Of a DNA stretch of 64,000 bases, positions 20,870 to 53,131 are shown one piece after another. Numbering within the stretch: the stretch's first letter is position 1; every line of letters starts with the position of its first letter. The translations under genes were made by a program, and so were the position numbers. Origin of the DNA: Singulisphaera sp. GP187. GTDB taxonomy: Bacteria > Planctomycetota > Phycisphaerae > Phycisphaerales > SM1A02. The stretch covers positions 124,001-188,000 of the forward strand of contig CAMBXO010000004.1 of the NCBI GenBank assembly GCA_945871915.1. The letters run 5' to 3'. A model generated the notes under the pieces. It was not told where the DNA came from. It saw only the letters and a program-made list of their open reading frames with translations, and searched no databases.

Positions 20870-21880
20870 CTAACTCCGAAGATGGTTCGGATCGATCAAC
20901 CAAAGCCAATCATCAAAGAGAAACTCAAACCTGGCTGCAAGCAGGGCGATGCGGCCCATGACGGTGAATCCGAATGCCGCGCCAAAAGTAATCATGAGGT
21001 ACCACACGCCCACACGCGCGGCACCACCAATGACCCCCTTGTGCTGAACGCTAAACAAGAAATACACAAGCCCGCACACCACACCCACCAACACCAGTGC
21101 GTTCGCCAGCGTTGCCCATGTGGTGGCATACCAATCGGTTCCTCCGGTCGCAGACGGAACCACTTCAACGATCGGTTGCATGGTGGCGGCCGCTTGGGCC
21201 ATCAAATCGCTTTCAACATGGCTCACAATCTTGAGCCCTGCCGTAACACCAACAATAAAGGCGAGCGGCCACGCAGCAATCCACCCCCCACGCGGTGCCA
21301 ACCTCCACAGCATCATCACGCCCAGCACCAGGGCAACCCACATGCTGATTTGTTGCACCACGTCTGATGGTTGGAGCGATGGAAGCACCAATTTTGAAAC
21401 AAGGGTCGGTGTCAGTGCGCCAAAGAGTTTCGGCACAAGCGTCTCCCAAAACCCAATCACCATCCAGTACGCGGCGCTCACGCCAATCACCGTTGCTTCA
21501 GCAAGTTTGTATGCAATATTGTCGGCATACAGAAAGCTCATGATGGCCAGCGTAAAGAATGCGCCCAGCCACAAACCGATGGTGCGTGGCCATGAGAGAC
21601 TGATGGAGTCCTGTGCAGGATTTGCTGCGCGCGCCGCAAAGAATTCCTTCGGTGCCACCTGGTTCCACTCGACCCATTTCATGGTGGCCTTGTCAGCCGG
21701 AACTTCCTTCCAGATGGTCTGCGAAACACCCTGTGCGCCGGCCACCTGCTCTGAGCCAAGCGACACTTCAACTTTTTTGACATAGACGCGACCAAGGCCC
21801 TCGCCAGTCAACCCGCGGGCGATCAGCAACGCTGCCAGAACACCGCACATCACCAGCCATGTCTTGCCTTGCCGCGTCAT
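20870..21880 (-). CDS. Polytopic membrane protein, last gene of five-gene operon
   Basis: 336 residues. One N-terminal transmembrane helix is followed by a ~75-residue soluble part (EVSLGSEQVAGAQG...), then about seven further hydrophobic helices (for example LWLGAFFTLAIMSFLYA, ISMWVALVLGVMMLW, ALVLVGVVCGLVYFLF) and WYLMITFGAAFGFTVMG. The C-terminus is WLWLIDPNHLRS. No transport or enzymatic family recognised. Its ATG overlaps the stop of the preceding gene (ATGA 21877-21880), so it is translated as part of the operon running from 25591. The architecture suggests a membrane subunit of a complex with its partners. Confidence 0.8.
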   Translation of the reverse strand: MTRQGKTWLVMCGVLAALLIARGLTGEGLGRVYVKKVEVSLGSEQVAGAQGVSQTIWKEVPADKATMKWVEWNQVAPKEFFAARAANPAQDSISLSWPRTIGLWLGAFFTLAIMSFLYADNIAYKLAEATVIGVSAAYWMVIGFWETLVPKLFGALTPTLVSKLVLPSLQPSDVVQQISMWVALVLGVMMLWRLAPRGGWIAAWPLAFIVGVTAGLKIVSHVESDLMAQAAATMQPIVEVVPSATGGTDWYATTWATLANALVLVGVVCGLVYFLFSVQHKGVIGGAARVGVWYLMITFGAAFGFTVMGRIALLAARFEFLFDDWLWLIDPNHLRS

Positions 21881-22752
21881 CGCTGCGGCCTCCGCTTGCC
21901 GGCAAAATAAATTCCATTGCCCGCAAGAATCAGCGACACCATCAATAAGTGACCAAACAACTGCGGTGCCATGCGTCGCTGCGCTTCCAGATATTTTGGA
22001 GCCGGCACGCCACCCATCGCCTCATTCACAAGCGATTCATATTCAGCGGCTCCCTTGATCGCGCCAAGAAGACCTGCCAGTTGAACGGGGTAATAGGGAT
22101 ACAGTTGCGGCGCGCTCACCCCGGTGCATCCGGCCACCATCTTCACTTTGCCTTGGCAAGCGCTGATGACATACTGAATCCATTCCTTGTTCCCTGGATA
22201 TCCGGCCCCAACATTCACGATAAGCGGAAAGTCCGACACGGTTTTGACATCTTTCAAAATTTCAATGTCATTCGATGGCTGCCCACGACTGTCCACCGGA
22301 AATGCTTTTTTGAAATCCGTCAGCACCACTTTCATGACACCTTCGTTGCCCGCCTGATATCCAAGATTGACAAAGTCAACACCTTCACGCATGGTGGGAA
22401 AATCACTGCGAACAACTTCCGCAAGCGTTTCTTGTGCCAGATTGCCTCCAAGCGGCCACAGTGCGATGCACACGATGCGAAGTTTCTTCGCAGCGCATTG
22501 CCGCATAAGACTGGTGGCCATCGGCTGCAACTCACCAGAACTTGCGGGGTCATAATCAAAACCAAAGAGCACGCGACTGCCCTCTGGAAGTGAGTCGATC
22601 GCTCGGAAGACATCCCTTGCCGCGGGCGTCGCGGTTTCCGGAAATGTTCGCCCTGTGATGCCGATCCACAAAATTGGAATCGCTACTGCAAGTCCCATCA
22701 TCAGAAACACCCATCGCCGATCCATGGAATCCAGACGGAGCCAGAAGTTCAT
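21877..22752 (-). CDS. Membrane-anchored protein with extracytoplasmic domain
   Basis: 291 residues. An N-terminal membrane helix (WVFLMMGLAVAIPILWIGI) and a C-terminal one (LFGHLLMVSLILAGNGIYFAG) flank a ~220-residue soluble alpha/beta domain with SRVLFGFDYDPASSGELQPMA, LRIVCIALWPLG and PLIVNVGAGYPG. That layout is reminiscent of auxiliary domains in ABC-type gliding or export systems (GldG-like), but no ATPase is encoded here and the likeness is only impressionistic. The start at 22752 was chosen because it forms ATGA with the preceding stop. A polar CTGVSAP region may be functional. Function unknown. Confidence 0.8.
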   Translation of the reverse strand: MNFWLRLDSMDRRWVFLMMGLAVAIPILWIGITGRTFPETATPAARDVFRAIDSLPEGSRVLFGFDYDPASSGELQPMATSLMRQCAAKKLRIVCIALWPLGGNLAQETLAEVVRSDFPTMREGVDFVNLGYQAGNEGVMKVVLTDFKKAFPVDSRGQPSNDIEILKDVKTVSDFPLIVNVGAGYPGNKEWIQYVISACQGKVKMVAGCTGVSAPQLYPYYPVQLAGLLGAIKGAAEYESLVNEAMGGVPAPKYLEAQRRMAPQLFGHLLMVSLILAGNGIYFAGKRRPQR

Positions 22753-23456
22753 CGGTCTCCTCCTGTTCCCATCCAACTTCGATCCACGCCAAGCAAAATC
22801 CGAAGGCTGGTGGCCGCAACGCCCAGAGCAATGCCCACAATGATTGCGCGGTTGCCAGCGGTGTTGAAGACCTGCATCACATACACGCTTAGGTTTTCCA
22901 ATCTCAATCCGCTGGCCCACTCCGGCAGCCAGCCGGTCAGGATGACGCCGGCAAATGTTCGACCCAGCAGAACAATGAACGCGGTTCCCAGCAACAGTCC
23001 AGCCTCCAGATTTTTGGCGCGAAAGGCCCGGAAGGCGGCGCTGGCGACATAAAAGGCCAGCAATGCAAACATGGTGCTGGTGAGCGGCACCATCGCGTAT
23101 TCATAAAGCCAACCAAATGGCGATTCGGGCGTGGTCTGCTTGCCGCTGAAAGTCGCCAACGGAAAGTCGCGGCTTGGATTCACGCCAACTTTGAAAATGC
23201 CGGCAATCAACGTGACGGCAAATGTGGACAGCGTGACAATCGCAAAGCCCCACCCCGCGTCGCGTCGGCTGATCTTGGTGAGGTTGGCTTTCAAAAGGCT
23301 GCCCGCACCAAGCACAAACGCGATCGCGGCAATCACATTGAACACCTCTGCAAAGGATTCACCCATGCCTTCGATCGGTTTTCCAAACGCACTAATCAGC
23401 ATCACGAAACCGCCAAGCGTTGCGATCCAAATTGGAATGGTTCGCCGCAGAATCAT
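22749..23456 (-). CDS. Polytopic membrane protein, third gene of five-gene operon
   Basis: 235 residues with about six hydrophobic helices (IPIWIATLGGFVMLISAF, FNVIAAIAFVLGAGSLL, WGFAIVTLSTFAVTLIAGIF, STMFALLAFYVASAAF, LLGTAFIVLLGRTFAGVIL and AIIVGIALGVAATSLRILLG). The loop GVNPSRDFPLATFSGKQTTPESPFGWLYEYAMVPL is conserved-looking and may face the periplasm. The protein ends with LGVDRSWMGTGGDR. It overlaps both neighbours by ATGA, a sign of stoichiometric translation within one complex. No family name can be given with confidence. Confidence 0.8.
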   Translation of the reverse strand: MILRRTIPIWIATLGGFVMLISAFGKPIEGMGESFAEVFNVIAAIAFVLGAGSLLKANLTKISRRDAGWGFAIVTLSTFAVTLIAGIFKVGVNPSRDFPLATFSGKQTTPESPFGWLYEYAMVPLTSTMFALLAFYVASAAFRAFRAKNLEAGLLLGTAFIVLLGRTFAGVILTGWLPEWASGLRLENLSVYVMQVFNTAGNRAIIVGIALGVAATSLRILLGVDRSWMGTGGDR

Positions 23457-24445
23457 GGGGAAACTCCCAAGGCGCGCTGGAGCAAGTGATAGGCCTCAAC
23501 CAGAAACGATGGTGATCCGCAAATGGCCGAGACCGTGGCCACGGCGGAACCAATCACAATGAACGCCAGCACCGCAATCTTGGCCGAATCCTGTGCCTGA
23601 AGCGTTCCAAGTTGATCTGGCTCGCCGCTCAGATACGCGCTGGCCGCAAAGAATTCCTCGCCGATCAAGGTGTAGTCGCACGCGGCAACAAAGAATGGCA
23701 ACTGGCTGCTCTCGGCTGTCCCGGCGATCTGAATGGCGCCAATCGAGTTTCCGATTTCGGAAAAGATAAGACTCTCTGCGAAAAAACATCCCATATAAAA
23801 ACAAGCCGCTGGCTTCTCTCGCAACATTTTTCCACCGACATAGGCCGCGTAGCCAAACTGCTCGTCGGTGATGTAATTGATTCGATCGGGCTGAAAGGAC
23901 TCCGGCCGACCCGCTGCAAGGCAACTGGCCTGCACTGCATCTCGCGCCGCCTCCATCACCAGTGAACGACTGGTTGGGGCTTCGATCACGGCGTCGTAGT
24001 GCGCTGCCGTGGTGGCCACGCGACTGAGCATGGTGATGCCCGCCACCGTCTGAATGTTGTCCATGTCCTGAATGCCCGGAATAAACAACACCGGCCGACC
24101 CATTTCCGTGGCGCGACCAATGGCTTCGTCTACGGCTTCAAGGGCGGCAATCCTGCGAATGGTCGGCAATTTCCCGCTTCGAGCACGCGACACAAAAATG
24201 GTGGTCGCAACTCCAATCCCCAAGATCCACATGCCAAGTGGAAGACGATGTTCATTGAAGAGTGCAGTCGCTTCAATCGGCGCCGTTGTTGCACTCGGCG
24301 CACCTTGGGCTGATTCGACTGGCACTTGGGTAATGAATTCGGCAGCCGCAACGCGAACGAACACCAGCATGGCTACCAGCAATACGGCACTCCGCAATCG
24401 ATTCTGAAATCTCCGGCGCAAAACTGCGCGGGCGGTTGAGTGCAT
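23453..24445 (-). CDS. DUF6754-like membrane protein
   Basis: 330 residues. The first hydrophobic segment (SAVLLVAMLVFVRVAAA) is signal-like; a second helix follows (MWILGIGVATTIFVS). A ~200-residue alpha/beta domain with GRPVLFIPGIQDMDNIQTVAGI, YDAVIEAPTSRSLVMEAARDAV and INYITDEQFGYAAYVGGKM comes next. Then FFAESLIFSEIGNSIGAIQIAG and a C-terminal membrane helix (IAVLAFIVIGSAVATVSAI). I recall this pattern as DUF6754, which is uncharacterised. The ATG at 24445 was chosen over an upstream TTG at 24454; neither has a clear ribosome binding site. Second gene of the operon, overlapping the next by ATGA. Confidence 0.75.
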   Translation of the reverse strand: MHSTARAVLRRRFQNRLRSAVLLVAMLVFVRVAAAEFITQVPVESAQGAPSATTAPIEATALFNEHRLPLGMWILGIGVATTIFVSRARSGKLPTIRRIAALEAVDEAIGRATEMGRPVLFIPGIQDMDNIQTVAGITMLSRVATTAAHYDAVIEAPTSRSLVMEAARDAVQASCLAAGRPESFQPDRINYITDEQFGYAAYVGGKMLREKPAACFYMGCFFAESLIFSEIGNSIGAIQIAGTAESSQLPFFVAACDYTLIGEEFFAASAYLSGEPDQLGTLQAQDSAKIAVLAFIVIGSAVATVSAICGSPSFLVEAYHLLQRALGVSP

Positions 24446-24466
24446 GGGTTGCAATGTATCGAGAAG

Positions 24467-25591
24467 TCAGCCCTCGATGCGTTCCACATTGGCGCGCGGC
24501 ACCACAACGGTACCGCCACGCTCCAGCGACACTTCGAGCACCCGCGCTCGACTGCCGCTCTCAAGCGTCGCGGGCCGCTCAGGCAAGGCCGCCACCCGAC
24601 CAATCAATCCAAAGTGCGGGTCGCGAATAATGCGAATCCAGGAACCCGCCACCAACTCGCCATCCACCGGTGCATCGGCTGGTGTGCTGTCAGCCGATGG
24701 TTCCGTGGGGATGATGATCTCCGGGCGCATCACACCTGCTCGAATTTGCGTGGCGCCATGCACGCACGCCAACTGTCCCTGATGACTTTCAAACAATTCA
24801 AAAGTGCGGCGAGCCATTGCAATTTCACCAAAGCCCTCGGTGATGATGAGTGTCACACCACACTTCTCACTACCGGTGATGGCCACGCCAAGGTCATACC
24901 CAAGAAAGTCGCGCAAGTCAGAGTCGTCAATGCCGCCGCTGACCACCGCCACCGCTCCAATTTGTTTCGCGCGCGCGATCGCCGACGCCGTCATGCGGGC
25001 TCCACCAATCACCACGCATCCCTTCATCTGAGGATGAATCGAATCTGCATGCAGTTCCTCCTGTGGCGATTTGCACGCCATCACCACCTTGCCGCGAGCT
25101 TCACCGCCCACGCCAAAAATCCCCTGCACCAGCGCCGCATGGCTCTCGATCACCGCACCTTCCCCGGCCAAGACCTCGATCACGCGACCCGGCATGTGCG
25201 CCACAACTTGCACCGGTTGCATGGGCCCGCGAATCAGAACCAACCCACTGGAGTCACTCACGCTCTCAATCGTCCCCGCGGCGCTGGCCTTGACCTCTGT
25301 CTTCATCAGACCAAAAATTCCTTTGCTGCGAGCAAACACTTCATCCTTGGCCACCTGTTCGCCAATGTGTTTCAGCATGAGTTCAGGAAGGTCACGCGGC
25401 TGACACGCCAGAAGATTGGCCACCTTCATTGGCGTGACATCGCCTTCTAGGTGGGTGTGCGCCACCACCGTGTCGCCCGCAATGCAATCACCAACGGCAA
25501 CCAGAACGCTTCCGTGTGTGGGCAACACCCGTCGCATGCGATGCACGCAATGCGACGTCACTTTGAGTCCTGGGGTGTAGGCCCTTGCCAT
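24467..25591 (-). CDS. Barrel-sandwich-like and KOW-like domain protein, first gene of operon
   Basis: 374 residues, soluble, with no signal peptide. The N-terminal half has paired motifs typical of lipoyl/RnfC-like barrel-sandwich folds: LVAVGDCIAGDTVVA near residues 38-50 and VIEVLAGEGAVIESHAALVQG near 145-165. The middle (CVVIGGARMTASAIARAKQIGAVAVVSGGIDD, LIITEGFGEIAM) looks like an alpha/beta domain. The last ~60 residues (WIRIIRDPHFGLIGRVAALP...VVVPRANVERIEG) resemble a KOW motif as in NusG or ribosomal L24. The start at 25591 gives a plausible N-terminus. It is likely the cytoplasmic partner of the membrane proteins that follow. Function unknown. Confidence 0.75.
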   Translation of the reverse strand: MARAYTPGLKVTSHCVHRMRRVLPTHGSVLVAVGDCIAGDTVVAHTHLEGDVTPMKVANLLACQPRDLPELMLKHIGEQVAKDEVFARSKGIFGLMKTEVKASAAGTIESVSDSSGLVLIRGPMQPVQVVAHMPGRVIEVLAGEGAVIESHAALVQGIFGVGGEARGKVVMACKSPQEELHADSIHPQMKGCVVIGGARMTASAIARAKQIGAVAVVSGGIDDSDLRDFLGYDLGVAITGSEKCGVTLIITEGFGEIAMARRTFELFESHQGQLACVHGATQIRAGVMRPEIIIPTEPSADSTPADAPVDGELVAGSWIRIIRDPHFGLIGRVAALPERPATLESGSRARVLEVSLERGGTVVVPRANVERIEG

Positions 25592-25770: not shown

Positions 25771-28080
25771 ATGGCCACCTTGATGCCACCTCATTTCATC
25801 TCCGTGTTCGTGCTCACCGCCACGTCATGTGTGGCTGGTGTTGCTTTGGCTGCCACGGCTCCTGCAGCAAGTGGACCTGCTGCAAAGACTTCCAGTCGCA
25901 ATGTCATGGGTCATGGCGCTATCGCTGGTCCATTGAATCAACAGGAAGTCACGGCCAGTTACACCCGCCGATATGCCCTGGAGTTTGCGGCCGCGCCAGT
26001 CACCCTGCTGCCGCCCATTGATGAAGTGGACATGATGCTTGAGGATGACAACATGCCGCAACCGGCGCCGCTGCGGTTTGCTGTGCAGCGACCGATCGAC
26101 GTTTCGATTTCGGATGGTCAATGGATCAATGTTCCTGGCGGACGCATCTGGCGTTTGGATGTCGAAGGCATTGGATCACTGAACACTCGCATGCACCTAA
26201 GCGGCCTAGACCTTGGTGAAGGTCAGGAAATTTTCCTTGACTCCGCAAGTGATGCCAATGATTCGGTCGGACCGTTGACTGGCAAGGGCGATTTTTCAAA
26301 TGGTGAAGCGTGGGGTGCTTTCACTCCGGGTGCCGTGGCTCGCATCGAATGGTTCGTGCCCGAAGGCTCCAATCCAACCACACTTCCGTTTGAAACGGCT
26401 GAGTATTCGCAGGGCTATCGAGACATCTTTGGCATATTTGCCGATGAGGTTTCCATGTTGGCTCAGTGCCACAACGATCCTGTGTGCTACGCATCGTGGA
26501 CCAACCAGTCGAATGCCGCAGCCAAGATGACTTTCACAAGCGGCGGCGGCAGTTACCTCTGCTCTGGTCAGCTCATGGCGACCACCGCCGCAGATGAGAC
26601 CCCATATTTCAGCACGGCCTACCACTGCATTAGCACACAGACGGAAGCCAACAGTTTGAATGCGCGGTTCTTCTACCGAGCCAGCACCTGCAACGGATCC
26701 AACAACGCAGGAACCAATGTGGTGGGTGCCGATCTTGTCTCGACTTATTCCGCGAGTGATGCAACGCTGCTCATGATTCGAGGGGCACTGCCATCGTCGG
26801 TCTACTGGGTGGGATCGTTGACCACCAACCCCGCCACCACCACGCCCATCGTCAGCATTCACCACCCCGGTGGCGCCGAACAGGACATCAGTTTTGGAAC
26901 CAAGACGTACACCACCGCCAATTGCGGATCGCCCTCCTCCAACTGGCATCGAGTTGGATGGACGACCGGGATTACCGAGGGTGGCAGCAGCGGATCGGCA
27001 CTGTATGTGGAGAGTTCGCAATTGCTTTGTGGATTGCTGACTTGCGGAACCAGCAGTTGCACCATTACCGCTGGTTGGGACGGTTACAGCCGCTGGGATC
27101 TCGCGATGGGAACCGGTGGGTTCTCTTCCTTTATCGCAGCAGGCACTGACGATACGCAGGAGCCAAATGACAGTTGCGCTGCGGCTCGCCTACTCACGCC
27201 GGCCACCTATTCCGCTCTTGTTGTGAAGCGCCTCGACAGCGATTGGTACGCGATCGATGTACCCATTGGCAGCACGCTTGTGTTGAGCAGTACCTACACC
27301 CACACCAATGGCGATGTGGACTTTCGATTGTGGAGCGGTTGCGGCGGCACCCTGCTGCAAGATCGCACCGGCAATGTGAACAATGAAGGCTTTACCTATG
27401 TGAATACCAGCAGTTCCACGCGACTTCTGTTGGAGGCCTATCTGAGCACGGACACACGAAATGATTACTCGATGATCTTTAGCGTGACCACGCCAGCGCC
27501 AGCCAACAACGAGTGCAGCGGAGCAACCACATGCACCGATGGCACTGTTGGATTCAGTACGGCAGGCGCTACCAACTCTAGTTACACCATCCCAGCAAGT
27601 TGCAATGTTGGCGGTGGAACGGCCATCAATAAAGATGTGTGGTTTGGATACACCGCCAGTTGCACTGGCACCGCCACCGCGAGCACCTGTGGGCAGGCTG
27701 GCTTTGATACCAACATTGCGGTCTACAGCGGTCCGTCGTGCCCTGGAGCTTCATCGACGGTGCTTGCATGTAATGACAATGGAAGCGGTTGCTCCGGAAG
27801 CACCAGTTCGGTGTATTGGGATGCGGTCGCTGGACAAACCTATTTCATCCGAGTCGGCAGCCCCGGAACCGGCAGCGGCAGCGGCAGCCTGACGATGAGT
27901 TGCGTCAATCTTTGCCCAGCCGATCTTGATGGCGACAGTGCGGTGGGCGGAAGCGATGTGGCACTCTTGCTGCTTGACTTTGGTCCGTGCGCCGGTTGCA
28001 GCGCTGATCTCGATGGAGATAACGATGTGACCGGTTCCGATCTGGCGTACTTGCTGCTTGATTTCGGCAACTGCCCCTAA
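25771..28080 (+). CDS. Secreted trypsin-like serine protease with dockerin-like repeats
   Basis: 769 residues. A signal peptide is followed by a ~200-residue N-terminal beta domain, then a chymotrypsin-fold protease with the triad visible: His in STAYHCIS, Asp in SASDATLLMI, Ser in TEGGSSGSALY. Cys-rich pairs suggest disulphides, and the layout resembles lysyl endopeptidase-type proteases. Next come a pre-peptidase C-terminal-like domain (DDTQEPNDSC...DWYAIDVP...RLWSGCG), a second beta domain (WFGYTASCTG...NIAVYSG) and two calcium-loop repeats (ADLDGDSAVGGSDVALLLLDFG and DLDGDNDVTGSDLAYLLLDFG). AGAAGGA precedes the ATG. Exported, probably calcium-stabilised; the repeats are characteristic of Phycisphaerales surface proteins. 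Confidence 0.9.
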   Translation: MATLMPPHFISVFVLTATSCVAGVALAATAPAASGPAAKTSSRNVMGHGAIAGPLNQQEVTASYTRRYALEFAAAPVTLLPPIDEVDMMLEDDNMPQPAPLRFAVQRPIDVSISDGQWINVPGGRIWRLDVEGIGSLNTRMHLSGLDLGEGQEIFLDSASDANDSVGPLTGKGDFSNGEAWGAFTPGAVARIEWFVPEGSNPTTLPFETAEYSQGYRDIFGIFADEVSMLAQCHNDPVCYASWTNQSNAAAKMTFTSGGGSYLCSGQLMATTAADETPYFSTAYHCISTQTEANSLNARFFYRASTCNGSNNAGTNVVGADLVSTYSASDATLLMIRGALPSSVYWVGSLTTNPATTTPIVSIHHPGGAEQDISFGTKTYTTANCGSPSSNWHRVGWTTGITEGGSSGSALYVESSQLLCGLLTCGTSSCTITAGWDGYSRWDLAMGTGGFSSFIAAGTDDTQEPNDSCAAARLLTPATYSALVVKRLDSDWYAIDVPIGSTLVLSSTYTHTNGDVDFRLWSGCGGTLLQDRTGNVNNEGFTYVNTSSSTRLLLEAYLSTDTRNDYSMIFSVTTPAPANNECSGATTCTDGTVGFSTAGATNSSYTIPASCNVGGGTAINKDVWFGYTASCTGTATASTCGQAGFDTNIAVYSGPSCPGASSTVLACNDNGSGCSGSTSSVYWDAVAGQTYFIRVGSPGTGSGSGSLTMSCVNLCPADLDGDSAVGGSDVALLLLDFGPCAGCSADLDGDNDVTGSDLAYLLLDFGNCP

Positions 28081-48392: not shown

Positions 48393-48998
48393 TTACGAGG
48401 GGTCTTCGTCTTCCTTGCCGAGTTCTCGGAAACGAAAGTTCTCCATGCCGACCATGCCGCCAGCCATCAAGCCCTTCTCGGCAGCGACATACAACGCGAT
48501 ACCGTCCTGAAATGGTGCGACACCGGTTGCGGCCTCATCGCCCGCAACTGCCATGCCTTCGGCCTTGCCTGTGAGCAAGCCCTTCTGAAATTGCTTTAGC
48601 ACATCAACATTTGCAAAGACCAGAAGCATTTTCTTTCCCTGCCCACCGAGTTGAAGGCCAAGATTGAAATTGTTCACCGCGGCCCAACCGAGTTGCTTGC
48701 CTTTGGCGTTAAAGACGGCTCCGCGCCCAAAACTGCCACCGGTAAAGATGATGCCCCACTGCCCCGTGCCGGGAAACACTGCGTAGCCCGCAGAATCCTG
48801 AATTTGTTTGCGCAGGTCTGGGATTTGCGTTTCAAAGAACTTCAAACCGTCCTTTGCCTCCACAACAAAACTCGCACGATCATCCGTGGATGGGGCGACA
48901 TTACATGCGGTGAGTTGCGAGAGCGAAACTGAAAGGGCGATCAGGAGGACGCGGTATCTCAATTTGAAAGTTCCTTTCACAAGTTCGCTCAGTGACAT
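48393..48998 (-). CDS. SYLF/Ysc84-like lipoprotein
   Basis: About 201 residues. The lipobox is SQLTAC, so it is probably an anchored lipoprotein. The rest matches SYLF domain proteins (DSAGYAVFPGTGQWGIIFTGGSFGRGAVF, GWAAVNNFNLGLQLGGQG, LLVFANVDVLKQFQKG, GLMAGGMVGME), which bind lipid in bacteria and phosphoinositides in eukaryotic Ysc84. Start is uncertain: ATG at 48998 gives a 16-residue polar lead, while a TTG at 48962 with AAAGGA nine bases upstream gives the tidy signal MRYRVLLIALSVSLS. Both give the same mature protein. Confidence 0.85.
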   Translation of the reverse strand: MSLSELVKGTFKLRYRVLLIALSVSLSQLTACNVAPSTDDRASFVVEAKDGLKFFETQIPDLRKQIQDSAGYAVFPGTGQWGIIFTGGSFGRGAVFNAKGKQLGWAAVNNFNLGLQLGGQGKKMLLVFANVDVLKQFQKGLLTGKAEGMAVAGDEAATGVAPFQDGIALYVAAEKGLMAGGMVGMENFRFRELGKEDEDPS

Positions 48999-49019
48999 CT
49001 CGCGGGATCCTATCGGCAA

Positions 49020-50852
49020 TCAGGCAAAGAGACCGACCGCCGCATTCCATTCAGCAAGCACGGCGCGACGCGTGAGGTCATCTTCTGGAAGGTGGAACGG
49101 TCGCCCCCGAGCGTCGAGCAAGAGTCCAATCGCGCCGCCACGCACGGTCCGAGTGACTGGTTTCCCTGGCCCCTCGCCCACATCGATGCTTCGCTCCGGT
49201 TTGACCTCCACGCGAGCGGTGCAATCACTGCCGAGTGCCACGCGAAGAATGGTTCCACCATTCACGACACCCGAGGCGTTGGCGGCGTTTCCACTTACCA
49301 CAGTCATGTTCCATGCGAAACACGGCTTGCCGCGCTTGCCTTCACCCTTGGCACTGACCGCCGTCCCAAGTACCACAAGGCAATCTTTTTCGAACACTTC
49401 CATCGCGGCCTGTTTGTGAACGCTGGCCAGCACGCCGAGGTGCGGCATCATGAAAATGCTGTCCTTGGCCAGTTCGGTAAATCCTTCGGGTTCAAAACTG
49501 TCCAGCAGCATGAGCGCGGTCTGTTCCATTCGAGGCGCATGGCTGAGCACGCCACCCGAGGCCACCAGCAAGTCCATGCGCATGCGATCAACCACACTTG
49601 CACCACTCTCTTGCTGCAGGAAAGCGTCGCCCACCGTGCGCTGTTGCTGCACCCCCTTGAGCGTTGTTGCAAAACTGCGATGTTGCTCAAATGCAAGTCG
49701 CAGCGCCTCGCGCGCCACCGCTTGCTCGAACACCAAGGCCTCATGCGTCTGAGGAATGGTGGTCGGTCGAATCATTTTGTTCTTCACCCGATTGCGAAGT
49801 TCACGCTCATCCATTTCGAGATACACCCATCGCAGCACATTTTTCATGCCAGCCTCGGCGCACACATTGCTGATGCTGTAACTCATCCCAAGATTGGCGC
49901 TGACCGTGCGATTGAACACTCCGCCGTACACACTGAACACATCCGTGGTGGCTCCGCCGATATCCACACACACAGCATTGATTCCGCGTCGCCGAGCAAT
50001 CTCTTGAAGAATGTCGCCCACCGCACCAGGTGTCGGCATGATGGGCGCATCGGTCCATTCAATCAGTCGGTCATAGCCGGGAGCATGCGCCATGACATGT
50101 TCCAGAAACACATCGTGAATCCGCTCCCGTGCCGGGCCAAGGTTTTCTCGCTCCAATGTGGGGCGAAGATTGTCCACCACGCTTAAGTCGAACGCCGGGC
50201 CAGCAAAGACACTGCTGACTGCGTTCGCGGCGTCCTTGTTGCCGGCAAAAATCACCGGCAATCGATAGGCGCCACCAAACCGAGGTCGCGGCTTGGCGGG
50301 CGCAATCAGTTCGGCAATCTCAACCACCTTGCGCTGATCGCCTCCGTCGGTTCCACCGCTGACAAGCACCATGTCTGGACGCAATTCGCGAATGCGCTGA
50401 ATTTGCTCATGCGGCTTGCGGCGATCATTTCCGGCGATCGTGTCCATCACGATGGCGCCGGCACCCAGCGCCGCGCGTTTGGCACTTTCGGCTGTCATCT
50501 CTCGCACCACTCCAGCCACCATCATTTGAAGTCCGCCGCCCGCGCTACTGGTGCTGACATACATGTCACACCCATCCGGATCATCTGTTGAGGTTCGACG
50601 AAGAATGGTTCCGTCGGCTCGCACCAACTTACGACCGCTGAGTTCCTGTAATTCCGTCACTGAATTGGTGACGCCCAGCGTGACATCGGCCAGCGGTTCT
50701 TCGACCGTGGTTGGCGCTTCGCCACGATGTGTCTGACGAAAGGCGCCATCCCGCTTCTCAATCAAAATGGCTTTGGTTGTGGTGCTTCCGCAATCGGTCG
50801 CGACCACGATTTCAATTCGAGTTGGATCAACGGATGACGATGCGGCACACAC
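49020..50852 (-). CDS. GlmL/MutL-family (glutamate mutase accessory) ASKHA ATPase
   Basis: 610 residues starting at GTG 50852. The family is recognised by ATDCGSTTTKAILIE (phosphate-1 motif), STSSAGGGLQMMVAGVV, VLVSGGTDGGDQRK, VIFAGNKDAA, VCVDIGGATTDVFSVYGG and DLLVASGGVLSHAPRMEQTALMLLDSFEPEGFTELAKDSIFMMPHLG. These proteins accompany adenosylcobalamin-dependent glutamate mutase and probably act as repair or chaperone ATPases. No mutase or B12 gene is nearby. It is followed on the same strand by the SYLF lipoprotein gene. Confidence 0.88.
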   Translation of the reverse strand: MCAASSSVDPTRIEIVVATDCGSTTTKAILIEKRDGAFRQTHRGEAPTTVEEPLADVTLGVTNSVTELQELSGRKLVRADGTILRRTSTDDPDGCDMYVSTSSAGGGLQMMVAGVVREMTAESAKRAALGAGAIVMDTIAGNDRRKPHEQIQRIRELRPDMVLVSGGTDGGDQRKVVEIAELIAPAKPRPRFGGAYRLPVIFAGNKDAANAVSSVFAGPAFDLSVVDNLRPTLERENLGPARERIHDVFLEHVMAHAPGYDRLIEWTDAPIMPTPGAVGDILQEIARRRGINAVCVDIGGATTDVFSVYGGVFNRTVSANLGMSYSISNVCAEAGMKNVLRWVYLEMDERELRNRVKNKMIRPTTIPQTHEALVFEQAVAREALRLAFEQHRSFATTLKGVQQQRTVGDAFLQQESGASVVDRMRMDLLVASGGVLSHAPRMEQTALMLLDSFEPEGFTELAKDSIFMMPHLGVLASVHKQAAMEVFEKDCLVVLGTAVSAKGEGKRGKPCFAWNMTVVSGNAANASGVVNGGTILRVALGSDCTARVEVKPERSIDVGEGPGKPVTRTVRGGAIGLLLDARGRPFHLPEDDLTRRAVLAEWNAAVGLFA

Positions 50853-50888
50853 ACTCAGAGCATACGCATGCCTGAAAAGCGTGACACG

Positions 50889-51254
50889 CTACGGTTGCGT
50901 TGGAGGTTGCGCCGCACTCTGAAGTTCTTCAAGTCTTTGCACCATCCACGGAATCGCCCCTCGCTTTTCCATGTAACGAGCCAGCCCCTCCCATGCATCG
51001 GGCTCCATCACCACTCCTACGAAGGGCGTGAGTGTGTGCATGCTTTGCCCCGTGATCGCACCAAGTGGTTTCCAACTCTCCAAAAACAGAATGGCCGGTC
51101 CCGCCATCTCGCGCTTCACAATTCGTTCAAGAATGTGCTCGATGCGTTGTCGCTCCGCAGTGTGCGGCGCCACCGCCCCATCGGCTTCAACGGCAAATGC
51201 GTGGCGCATGTTGGCGAGCCACCCGCGTGTTGCACGATCGTTGCCTTTGGTCAC
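50889..51254 (-). CDS. Small hypothetical protein, 121 aa
   Basis: Not recognised. I place the start at GTG 51254, one base after the stop of the upstream gene, giving MTKGNDRATRGWLANMRHAFAVE. The frame is open further upstream into the neighbouring gene but has no coding character there. The body has an amphipathic helix (AERQRIEHILERIVKREMAGPAILFLE) and a GITGQSMHTLTPFV-like loop. It ends with a Gln/Pro tail. Soluble, without signal. It is probably coupled to the preceding membrane protein gene by the near-zero spacing. Confidence 0.55.
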   Translation of the reverse strand: MTKGNDRATRGWLANMRHAFAVEADGAVAPHTAERQRIEHILERIVKREMAGPAILFLESWKPLGAITGQSMHTLTPFVGVVMEPDAWEGLARYMEKRGAIPWMVQRLEELQSAAQPPTQP

Positions 51255-51255
51255 T

Positions 51256-51759
51256 CTACGACCCGTGTTGCCGAAGGAATGAATCGACTGCACGCCGCCG
51301 GACCTCGGCCGAAGCGGGGTCGAATCCCAAAAGAATTTCCACGCCGCAAACACCGCCAATGCGAGAAAGCCTTCTGCCTGATCCATCGCGCGAGGCTCGA
51401 AGAAGTCCACGAGTTTCTTGCCACATGACGCCATGCACATCATTCCATCGCAGCATGCGTACCCGCAGCGGTTCGTGAACCGTTAGGCCATCTGCGTTCA
51501 ACACATAGTCCGTCGGAAGGAGAAAGCGTTGCAAGGAAATCACAAGGGCAAGCCCCGCGACTCCACCAATCCAACTGTCGTTCATAACGCTTCCAACCAT
51601 CCACCCGAGAGACACCATGGCAAGCACTGCAAACACCGTTCGAGACGGTCGTTCACGCGCCGGCCACACCGTCCAGGCGAACGCCTGCTGCGGAACCTCG
51701 CGTTCAATGGACGCGACGACTCCTTGGCGAATGAATTCCACGGGAGCAAGCGTGGTCAT
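51256..51759 (-). CDS. Small membrane protein with possible PH-like domain
   Basis: 167 residues from the ATG at 51759. After ~45 polar residues come two adjacent transmembrane helices (RTVFAVLAMVSLGWMVGSVM and GGVAGLALVISLQRFLLP). A C-terminal ~90-residue domain with YVLNADGLTVHEPLRVRMLRWNDVHGV is reminiscent of bacterial PH-like membrane proteins. The rest has several Arg-Arg pairs. It is divergent from kynureninase, with 82 bases between the starts. No function assigned. Confidence 0.6.
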   Translation of the reverse strand: MTTLAPVEFIRQGVVASIEREVPQQAFAWTVWPARERPSRTVFAVLAMVSLGWMVGSVMNDSWIGGVAGLALVISLQRFLLPTDYVLNADGLTVHEPLRVRMLRWNDVHGVMWQETRGLLRASRDGSGRRLSRIGGVCGVEILLGFDPASAEVRRRAVDSFLRQHGS

Positions 51760-51841
51760 GAATCGCAGAATAGCCGGATCAAGCCGATTTTCGAAACAAA
51801 ATCTTTCTAGTATGCGCTGCATGAGCGGCTTTCCGACCACC

Positions 51842-53131
51842 ATGGCTCTTTCGTTTCGAGATTTCTCGGCCGAAAAGGCGTGTGCCGAGCATCTGGATTC
51901 CATCGACCCACTCTCGCGATTTCGGGATCGATTTGAATTGCCGCGCGATGCAAGCGGAAACCCGGTGACTTATTTGGTTGGAAACTCGCTCGGACCCATG
52001 CCCAAAGCCGCCCGCGCGTTGGTGATGCAGGAATTGGACGCATGGGGCGGCATGGCCAGCGAAGCACGATTTCGAGGTGCGCGACCGTGGTACCGCTATC
52101 ACGAAATGTTTCGTGAGCCGCTGGCTCGATTGGTTGGGGCGCAGCCTGACGAGATTGTTGCCATGAATGGCCTGACCGTGAATCTGCATTTGCTGTTGGC
52201 AAGTTTCTGGAGACCGCAGGGTCAACGCTCGCGCATTCTTATGGAGTCTGGGGCTTTCCCAAGCGACACCTATGCCATTGAGAGTCATGTGCGCGTGCGC
52301 AGTCACGACCCAGCCACCGAGGTTGTGAAGGTGTCGCCGCAGACTGGTGAGGCGTGCTTCACCACTTCGGATTTTGTGGACGCGATCGAGCGTGAAGGCG
52401 ATCGGCTTGCGTTGGTTCTTGTTGGTGGTGTGAATTATTTTTCGGGACAAGTTCTCGATATGGCGGCAATCACTGCCGCGGCGCACAAGGTTGGCGCACT
52501 GTGTGGCTTTGACCTTGCACACGCTGTCGGCAATGTGCCGATGCAACTGCATGACTGGAACTGCGACTTTGCAGCGTGGTGCAGTTACAAATATCTCAAC
52601 GCGGGATCCGGGAGTGTTGCCGGATGCTTTGTTCATAGTCGACACGCCAATGATTTGCAGCGGCCACGCTTGTGTGGCTGGTGGGGAAGCGATCCGCAGG
52701 AGCGTCTTCGCATGCTTGATGCGTTTGTACCCGCACTGGGTGCTGATGGCTGGCAAGTCACCAATCCACCAATTCTCTCAAGCGCGCCATTGAAGGCGAG
52801 CTTGGATCTTTTTGATGAGGCCACGCTGCCGATGCTGCGGCAGAAGAGCAAGGCCCTCACTGGCTATCTGGAATTCATGTTGCGGAATGCTGCGCCGAAA
52901 GGCTGTTCCGTCATCACGCCTGTTGGTTCCAATGAACGCGGTTGCCAGTTGTCCATTCGTATTGGCGGAGATGCTCGCGCCGCATCGCACGCACTCCACG
53001 ACCTCGGATTCTGGTGTGACTTTCGCGAGCCAGATGTGGTGCGAGCGAGCCCGACACCTTTCTTCAATACCTTCTCCGAGGTTCATTCGTTTGCACATGC
53101 ACTGGCAAGCATTGTGCGAACAGGTTCGTGA
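51842..53131 (+). CDS. kynU: Kynureninase
   Basis: 429 residues. A PLP enzyme cleaving kynurenine to anthranilate and alanine. The N-terminus (DFSAEKACAEHLDSIDPLSRFRDRFELP) is followed by YLVGNSLGPMPKAAR, the classic kynureninase signature. The PLP lysine lies in AAWCSYKYLNAGSG, and GFDLAHAVGN carries the PLP-ring Asp. I chose the ATG at 51842 to fit family starts; upstream ATGs at 51812 and 51821 are in frame. No other tryptophan-degradation gene is in the window. Confidence 0.94.
   Translation: MALSFRDFSAEKACAEHLDSIDPLSRFRDRFELPRDASGNPVTYLVGNSLGPMPKAARALVMQELDAWGGMASEARFRGARPWYRYHEMFREPLARLVGAQPDEIVAMNGLTVNLHLLLASFWRPQGQRSRILMESGAFPSDTYAIESHVRVRSHDPATEVVKVSPQTGEACFTTSDFVDAIEREGDRLALVLVGGVNYFSGQVLDMAAITAAAHKVGALCGFDLAHAVGNVPMQLHDWNCDFAAWCSYKYLNAGSGSVAGCFVHSRHANDLQRPRLCGWWGSDPQERLRMLDAFVPALGADGWQVTNPPILSSAPLKASLDLFDEATLPMLRQKSKALTGYLEFMLRNAAPKGCSVITPVGSNERGCQLSIRIGGDARAASHALHDLGFWCDFREPDVVRASPTPFFNTFSEVHSFAHALASIVRTGS

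Follow-up and report, generated by a model that had tools for sequence, protein, structure and literature searches.

A predicted MutL/GlmL-family ATPase, a putative adaptor and a DUF6754 membrane quartet probably form one system in a planctomycete and in many other phyla

Five closely packed genes for uncharacterized proteins on a contig of Singulisphaera sp. GP187 raise the question of what complex they could encode and what could power it. They lie at positions 20870-25591 of a 64,000-nucleotide (nt) stretch (GenBank assembly GCA_945871915.1, contig CAMBXO010000004.1, positions 124,001 to 188,000), which is the whole stretch analyzed and is called the window here. A preliminary description, made from the sequence alone, proposed that the five products are subunits of one complex, stressed a KOW-like motif in the first of them and stated that no ATPase is included. 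We report that these proteins, termed P1 to P5, very likely belong to a functional system of eight, whose other members are a predicted MutL/GlmL-family ATPase (ML) and two further proteins (S1 and S0) encoded in the window at a distance of about 23 kb. The genes of the row are as follows, with lengths in amino acids (aa) and TM denoting a transmembrane segment.

P1, 24467-25591, minus strand, 374 aa: cytosolic adaptor (role predicted)
P2, 23453-24445, minus strand, 330 aa: DUF6754 protein with a TM, a cytoplasmic Rossmann-like core and a second TM
P3, 22749-23456, minus strand, 235 aa: polytopic membrane protein with about 6 TM
P4, 21877-22752, minus strand, 291 aa: TM-anchored extracytoplasmic domain, both termini inside
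P5, 20870-21880, minus strand, 336 aa: polytopic membrane protein

The row itself is real as first described: all five genes are intact and on the minus strand, ATGA overlaps join P2 to P3, P3 to P4 and P4 to P5, and 21 nt separate P1 from P2. The suspected DUF6754 identity of P2 is borne out by its match to the curated family PF20539 (E = 3.3e-109; 364 bits versus a cut-off of 27). P1, P3, P4 and P5 match no Pfam or NCBIfam family over the cut-off, and for P3, P4 and P5 the Pfam scan was empty even at E values up to 1. Scans of both collections also agree with the view that the five include no known transporter or enzyme.

Relatives supplied the apparently missing ATPase. On 20 stretches from relatives and other members of the phylum, the order P1-P2-P3-P4-P5 recurs 16 times, and 16 stretches carry a MutL-family protein, about 610 aa long, ahead of P1 or P2; exceptions include a stretch with only ML, P1 and P2 (L062; loci carry L numbers and genomes G numbers) and one with P1 to P5 and no ML (L054). 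The usual order in many relatives is S0, S1 and then ML, ahead of P1 to P5. The window's genome encodes one MutL protein, with its profile match at window positions 49380-50807, inside the following set at 49020-51903.

ML, 49020-50852, minus strand: MutL/GlmL-family (ASKHA-type) predicted ATPase (PF13941, E = 4.9e-131)
S1, 50889-51254, minus strand: small soluble protein (profile match to relatives' S1, E = 6.1e-43 in this genome)
S0, 51256-51903, minus strand: 2-TM protein with a weak bacterial-PH-like domain (profile match to relatives' S0)

The GTG start of S1 was chosen because it leaves 1 nt after S0 and fits the length of homologues, within an open frame that reaches 51443, and the PH-like assignment reflects a bPH_6 match in a relative's S0 that lies below the cut-off (E = 0.0014). 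Within the genus, the two halves are adjacent (L055 and L058), 1.3 or 3.3 kb apart (L167 and L166, respectively) or on different contigs (L164 and L165). Since the ATPase half is present at 49020-51903 and the halves separate within the genus, the system here is split rather than devoid of an ATPase, and the statement that none belongs to it does not hold.

ML scores 437 bits against the MutL family model (PF13941), whose cut-off is 27. The phosphate-1, phosphate-2 and adenosine motifs have established roles in ASKHA-type ATPases. All three are invariant in 14 ML homologues, which predicts ATP binding from sequence. The other weak matches of ML are only to hydantoinase/oxoprolinase and B12-binding models, and a sequence search of the PDB gave nothing credible (one match, E = 0.49).

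To assess the distribution of the system, we scanned one genome per species for DUF6754, which yielded at least 575 confirmed loci, and kept the best 80, ranked by match to the planctomycete query and chosen by P2 alone. By record title, these best 80 come from Eisenbacteria, Fermentibacteria, Zixibacteria, WOR-3/Stahlbacteria, Cloacimonadota, Latescibacterota, Poribacteria, Sumerlaeota, Acidobacteria, Deltaproteobacteria and others. Together with the window and the 20 stretches above, they make 101 loci, two of which (L069 and L072) represent a single site; the quartet-distance and topology analyses omit L072, and the order and neighbor counts include it. A complete same-strand P2-P3-P4-P5 run is headed by 99 of the 122 P2 genes (98 of 121 without L072); a sequence end truncates the run for 8 of the others, and 15 fall short in other ways. 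Of the 101 loci, 84 carry one or more full quartets. This arrangement is far beyond chance. The absence of co-occurrence in relatives, which the preliminary description had named as the outcome that would count against it, was looked for, and instead the same order is kept across phyla, as expected of a single unit. These comparisons take the first start codon in each frame, which makes the gap and overlap counts approximate; 4-nt overlaps were seen at 5 of 108 P2-P3, 18 of 103 P3-P4 and 41 of 99 P4-P5 junctions. Close packing is thus general, but the overlaps of the window are not. In four genomes of one planctomycete family (G063, G124, G141 and G172), P4 and P2 are separated; in G124 and G141, P3 and P5 adjoin P4. 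A P4 profile search was positive in 10 of 10 genomes with DUF6754, dispersed ones included, and negative in one genome without it. The P4 match in G063 (L180, G063:C1:3526199-3527056) holds one TAG stop.

The two halves also co-occur at the level of genomes. Among 149 genomes of the phylum, taken as the same set for the DUF6754, MutL and GlmE scans (their listed members agree), DUF6754 is present in 41 and MutL over the cut-off in 42: 36 genomes have both, 5 only DUF6754, 6 only MutL and 102 neither (Fisher's exact p = 6.5e-23, uncorrected for shared ancestry). Three of the six MutL-only genomes (G049, G078 and G134) are the sole three of the 149 with glutamate mutase GlmE over the cut-off, and they show no match to P1 or S1. 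Two others (G091 and G105, 73% and 72% complete) show S0-S1-ML, with P1 as well in G105, and the last (G111) is 79% complete. In a set of 41 near relatives, 23 of 24 genomes with DUF6754 have MutL, and in four others MutL (a weak match in one) occurs without DUF6754; neither family passes the cut-off in any of 14 control genomes. The pattern extends to the 39 genomes with DUF6754 that were reached through loci with record titles other than Planctomycetota, with MutL over the cut-off in 35, P1 in 35 and S1 in 36. MutL was found in 28 of the 32 such genomes whose locus stretch had shown no ML.

Quartets frequently outnumber ATPases. The 39 genomes of other lineages hold 100 DUF6754 matches versus 52 MutL matches over the cut-off, the latter counted with contig fragments included, and DUF6754 exceeds MutL in 24 genomes, equals it in 11 and falls below it in 4, with an extreme of 7 versus 1 in G208. 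Two or three complete quartets lie on 14 of the 101 loci. In 115 of 116 family-by-quartet comparisons, the nearest quartet is in another locus and not on the same stretch, so neighboring quartets are old paralogues, and recent local duplication is rejected as their origin. The nearest quartet was common to all four families in 14 of 29 cases, to three in 6, to two in 7 and to one in 2.

The distribution of charged residues suggests how the quartet sits in the membrane. Lysine and arginine average 1.6 before and 4.3 after the TM that precedes the DUF6754 core (90 proteins), which places the core of P2 in the cytoplasm. In P4, the averages fall from 3.2 to 1.1 across the first TM and rise from 1.3 to 3.7 across the last (97 proteins), which places its domain, alpha/beta-type by eye in an alignment of 35 homologues, outside. 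P3 has 5 or 6 predicted TM in all 98 quartets (34 homologues aligned), and P5 has 4 to 6 in 89 of 98 (29 homologues aligned). Paralogy between P3 and P5 and between P2 and P4 was rejected, with hhalign probabilities of 0.3 and 1.2. Sequence searches of the PDB with P2 to P5 gave nothing credible: P2 had two matches (E = 1.4 and 3.2), and the only match of P5 was a 69-aa TrwL protein (E = 0.039).

P1 appears to bridge the halves. Where they lie apart, P1 stays with ML (L156, L157, L158 and L168) or with P2 (L160 and L165), and ML also stands without an adjoining P1 in other genomes, such as L159, L161, L162 and L206. On a divergent branch, ten proteins are fusions of ML to P1, one in L129 and nine at places in seven more genomes, and the two fused forms in the ML alignment retain the nucleotide motifs. 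The fusions (L129:17462-20224 and L192-L200) are 895 to 993 aa long, and no constant neighbors were seen around them; a 961-aa frame in L067 was dropped as a candidate fusion because it is a shadow frame. From the fusions and the linkage we predict that ML binds P1, and from the linkage of P1 to P2 that P1 binds P2. Carrier roles for P1 were considered and are disfavored, since neither lysine, the acceptor of a biotin or lipoyl group, nor histidine, which a phosphohistidine swivelling domain would need, occurs in any invariant or 90% column of 24 P1 sequences.

Taken together, these observations suggest an envelope-spanning system of up to eight proteins, for which we infer a physical complex, ATP turnover and transport. 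ML would act in the cytosol with the aid of S1 and perhaps also of S0, a membrane protein, and P1 would tie ML to the quartet, in which the P2 core faces the cytosol, the P4 domain lies outside and P3 and P5 form the membrane core. Binding or hydrolysis of ATP by ML may be relayed through P1 and P2 so that the quartet does work across the membrane, most likely transport. One ATPase-adaptor unit (ML, S1 and P1) could serve several interchangeable quartets. We put the probability that such a unit drives transport by the quartet at roughly 0.4. Slightly more tentative still is the wider proposal of a new class of ATP-powered machine in many phyla, in which a MutL/GlmL-type ASKHA ATPase, and not one of the ABC, P-type or AAA kinds, drives interchangeable four-subunit membrane units via a shared adaptor.

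Several observations weigh against transport driven by ML. Sequence searches of Pfam and the PDB gave no credible match for P3, P4 and P5 and pointed to no transporter fold. Five of the 41 phylum genomes with DUF6754 have no MutL match, and P1 is missing as well from two of these, G075 and G088, whose completeness is 90% or more; G135 has S0-S1-ML and DUF6754 and no P1 was found in it, and G184 and G187, among the 39 genomes of other lineages, lack MutL, P1 and S1. Of the 41 DUF6754 genomes in the window's phylum, 30 carry a single copy and 11 more than one, so the many-quartet pattern lies mainly outside this phylum; the contig fragments among the MutL counts also bear on it. Distances among quartets correlate between families at 0.71 to 0.84, which favors quartets as old units but partly reflects shared species history. 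Finally, GlmL is described as a reactivating chaperone (PMC4682846), a role that fits enzyme activation as well as transport.

That last point leads to the strongest alternative, which we consider possible and somewhat less likely than transport: ML would be an ATP-dependent activase, and P2 to P5 a membrane enzyme with its active site in the P2 core, reactivated or loaded by ML and P1 in the manner of GlmL. The core carries many invariant polar residues in a Rossmann-like fold (predicted local distance difference test, pLDDT, 87.0), and one activator for several enzymes would also give more quartets than ATPases. The core superposes on Sir2 (Z = 12.0, 3.4 Å over 139 residues) and on GmhA, RCK and CODH epsilon (Z of about 9 to 10), likenesses of a common fold only, with identities of 6 to 18% among the matches listed; Foldseek gave no P2 match at E below 0.001. 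However, Pfam and NCBIfam recognize no enzyme family in P2 to P5, no neighboring enzyme gene is common to most loci, and two polytopic subunits with an outward domain would probably exceed the usual needs of an enzyme. ML shares with the GlmL/MutL protein of glutamate mutase the 450-position MutL domain and the invariant nucleotide-site motifs, but it scores 239 bits versus a cut-off of 475 for the GlmL model and 172 versus 204 for the family model (NCBIfam NF040745 and TIGR01319), and its predicted partner is a membrane quartet. A glutamate-mutase context was rejected: GlmE occurs in 3 of the 149 phylum genomes, none of them with DUF6754, P1 or S1, and GlmE (PF06368) has no match in the window's genome (G000, 98% complete).

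Doubtful is a device for envelope sensing, scaffolding or polarity, in which an ASKHA-type switch or polymer docked on the quartet and outward domains bound envelope components. The P2 proteins of relatives have the layout of receptors, with an extracytoplasmic N-terminus, a TM and a cytoplasmic core, and actin-like proteins, PilM among them, belong to the ASKHA superfamily. The N-terminus is Fn3-like, by weak matches in 2 of 8 and 2 of 5 proteins scanned, or a beta-propeller; the window's P2 is without most of this region. On the other hand, ML matches the MutL/GlmL family, none of its weak matches is actin-like, and no regulator gene stood out among the neighbor clusters common to at least four loci. 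The propeller is a PQQ/BamB-type ectodomain at the N-terminus of one DUF6754 protein (L113:954-3632, E = 9.7e-18), and two 974-aa DUF6754 proteins (L107:7847-10771 and L131:7847-10771) have a long extracytoplasmic N-terminus, with a weak fn3 match in L107.

Quite improbable is a support system for glycine cleavage or one-carbon metabolism that would, for example, supply glycine or serine. In 14 of the 46 ML loci, the same strand carries gcvPB no more than 2.5 kb upstream, at a spacing of 4 to 58 nt in four, overlapping in one and at 1.3 to 1.5 kb in nine; lplA follows a P5 in 7 of the 46 (L074, L075, L093, L096, L110, L123 and L124), and a D-2-hydroxyacid dehydrogenase gene (Pfam, L122) stands just before P2 in five loci. 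The identities of GcvPB, GcvH and LplA were confirmed on one protein each. Nevertheless, 32 of the 46 ML loci show no gcvPB, with over 1.5 kb of room available in 39 of the 46, and gcvPB is in no planctomycete locus. The loci with gcvPB upstream of S0-S1-ML are L074, L075, L076, L078, L082, L085, L090, L091, L093, L096, L098, L102, L110 and L111.

The hint of a KOW motif in P1 would point to a ribosome- or RNA-coupled device for membrane insertion or secretion, which we regard as very unlikely. The preliminary description had seen barrel-sandwich-like and KOW-like parts in P1, and Pfam places both hints below the cut-off (KOW, E = 0.042 and 14.1 bits versus a cut-off of 22.3; Biotin_lipoyl, E = 0.086). 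What survives is structural: the AlphaFold2 model (mean pLDDT 86.8, predicted template modeling score 0.66) combines a barrel-sandwich-like N-terminus, for which the sequence gives just weak matches, with a swivelling beta/beta/alpha domain resembling RraA (Z = 8.8, 3.1 Å over 124 residues) and a C-terminal SH3/KOW-like barrel. The barrel fits the KOW domains of Spt5 (Z = 8.9, root mean square deviation 1.0 Å over 51 residues), and the sole Foldseek match of P1 below an E value of 0.001 is Thermotoga NusG (E = 2.2e-5, TM-score 0.15), at Z = 8.9 but 13.1 Å over 111 residues. The emphasis on a nucleic-acid or ribosome-type motif is weak, however: a photosystem I subunit with an SH3-like fold (7y7b chain E) and Ssl0352 match the barrel almost as closely (Z = 8.0 and 8.1, respectively), the Pfam scan lists no NusG N-terminal domain in P1, and all ten ML-P1 fusions stop near P1 position 294-298 of 375, ahead of the barrel. 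In sharing an SH3-like barrel, P1 resembles NusG/Spt5 proteins, but its gene context is a membrane cassette. The fold searches of P1 and P2 thus gave common folds and the NusG match among the matches listed, with room for families beyond these.

That five unrelated membrane genes adjoin by chance is refuted: the halves do separate in some genomes, but order and content are kept across many phyla, P4 is retained when dispersed, and P1, S1 and MutL co-occur with P2. A defense system was also rejected, with no PADLOC match for the eight proteins at E up to 0.01.

The proposed ATP-driven transport system can be set beside known energized membrane systems. In ECF transporters and in ExbBD/TonB, one energizer serves several membrane partners. 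The excess of membrane units over the ATPase in 24 of 39 genomes recalls that logic, without implying membership, but the ATPase here is of the MutL type, and Pfam recognizes no transporter component in the scanned proteins. No ABC ATPase appeared in Pfam scans of P1 to P5 or of homologues of S0, S1, ML, P1, P3, P4 and P5. The barrel-sandwich-like N-terminus of P1 recalls RNF/NQR, with matches below cut-offs to RnfC_N (E = 0.1) and, in a fused form, to NqrA (E = 0.0029); in contrast, P2 to P5 have no Pfam match to Rnf or Nqr subunits, and no cysteine is among the invariant or 90% columns of P3 and P5.

Two further genes adjoin the halves in the window. Directly after ML is a lipoprotein-like gene (48393-49019, minus strand) with no Pfam match up to E = 0.001, whose product we take to be reminiscent of SYLF/Ysc84 proteins. 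Divergent from P1 is a gene (25771-28080, plus strand) for a large secreted protein with a trypsin-like domain (PF13365, E = 3.9e-7) and, by eye, two dockerin-like repeats at its end.

Within open-licence PMC text, we found no description of this system and no paper on DUF6754 or PF13941. Its cassette has a stable order of genes, paralogous units of old origin and a predicted ATPase of its own, and many of its loci come from candidate phyla. The MutL/GlmL family gains a new partner: DUF6754 occurs in 36 of the 42 phylum genomes with MutL over the cut-off, and glutamate mutase in 3. Few kinds of ATP-driven membrane system are known, and if ML drives or remodels the quartet, this would be a new kind of energized membrane complex.

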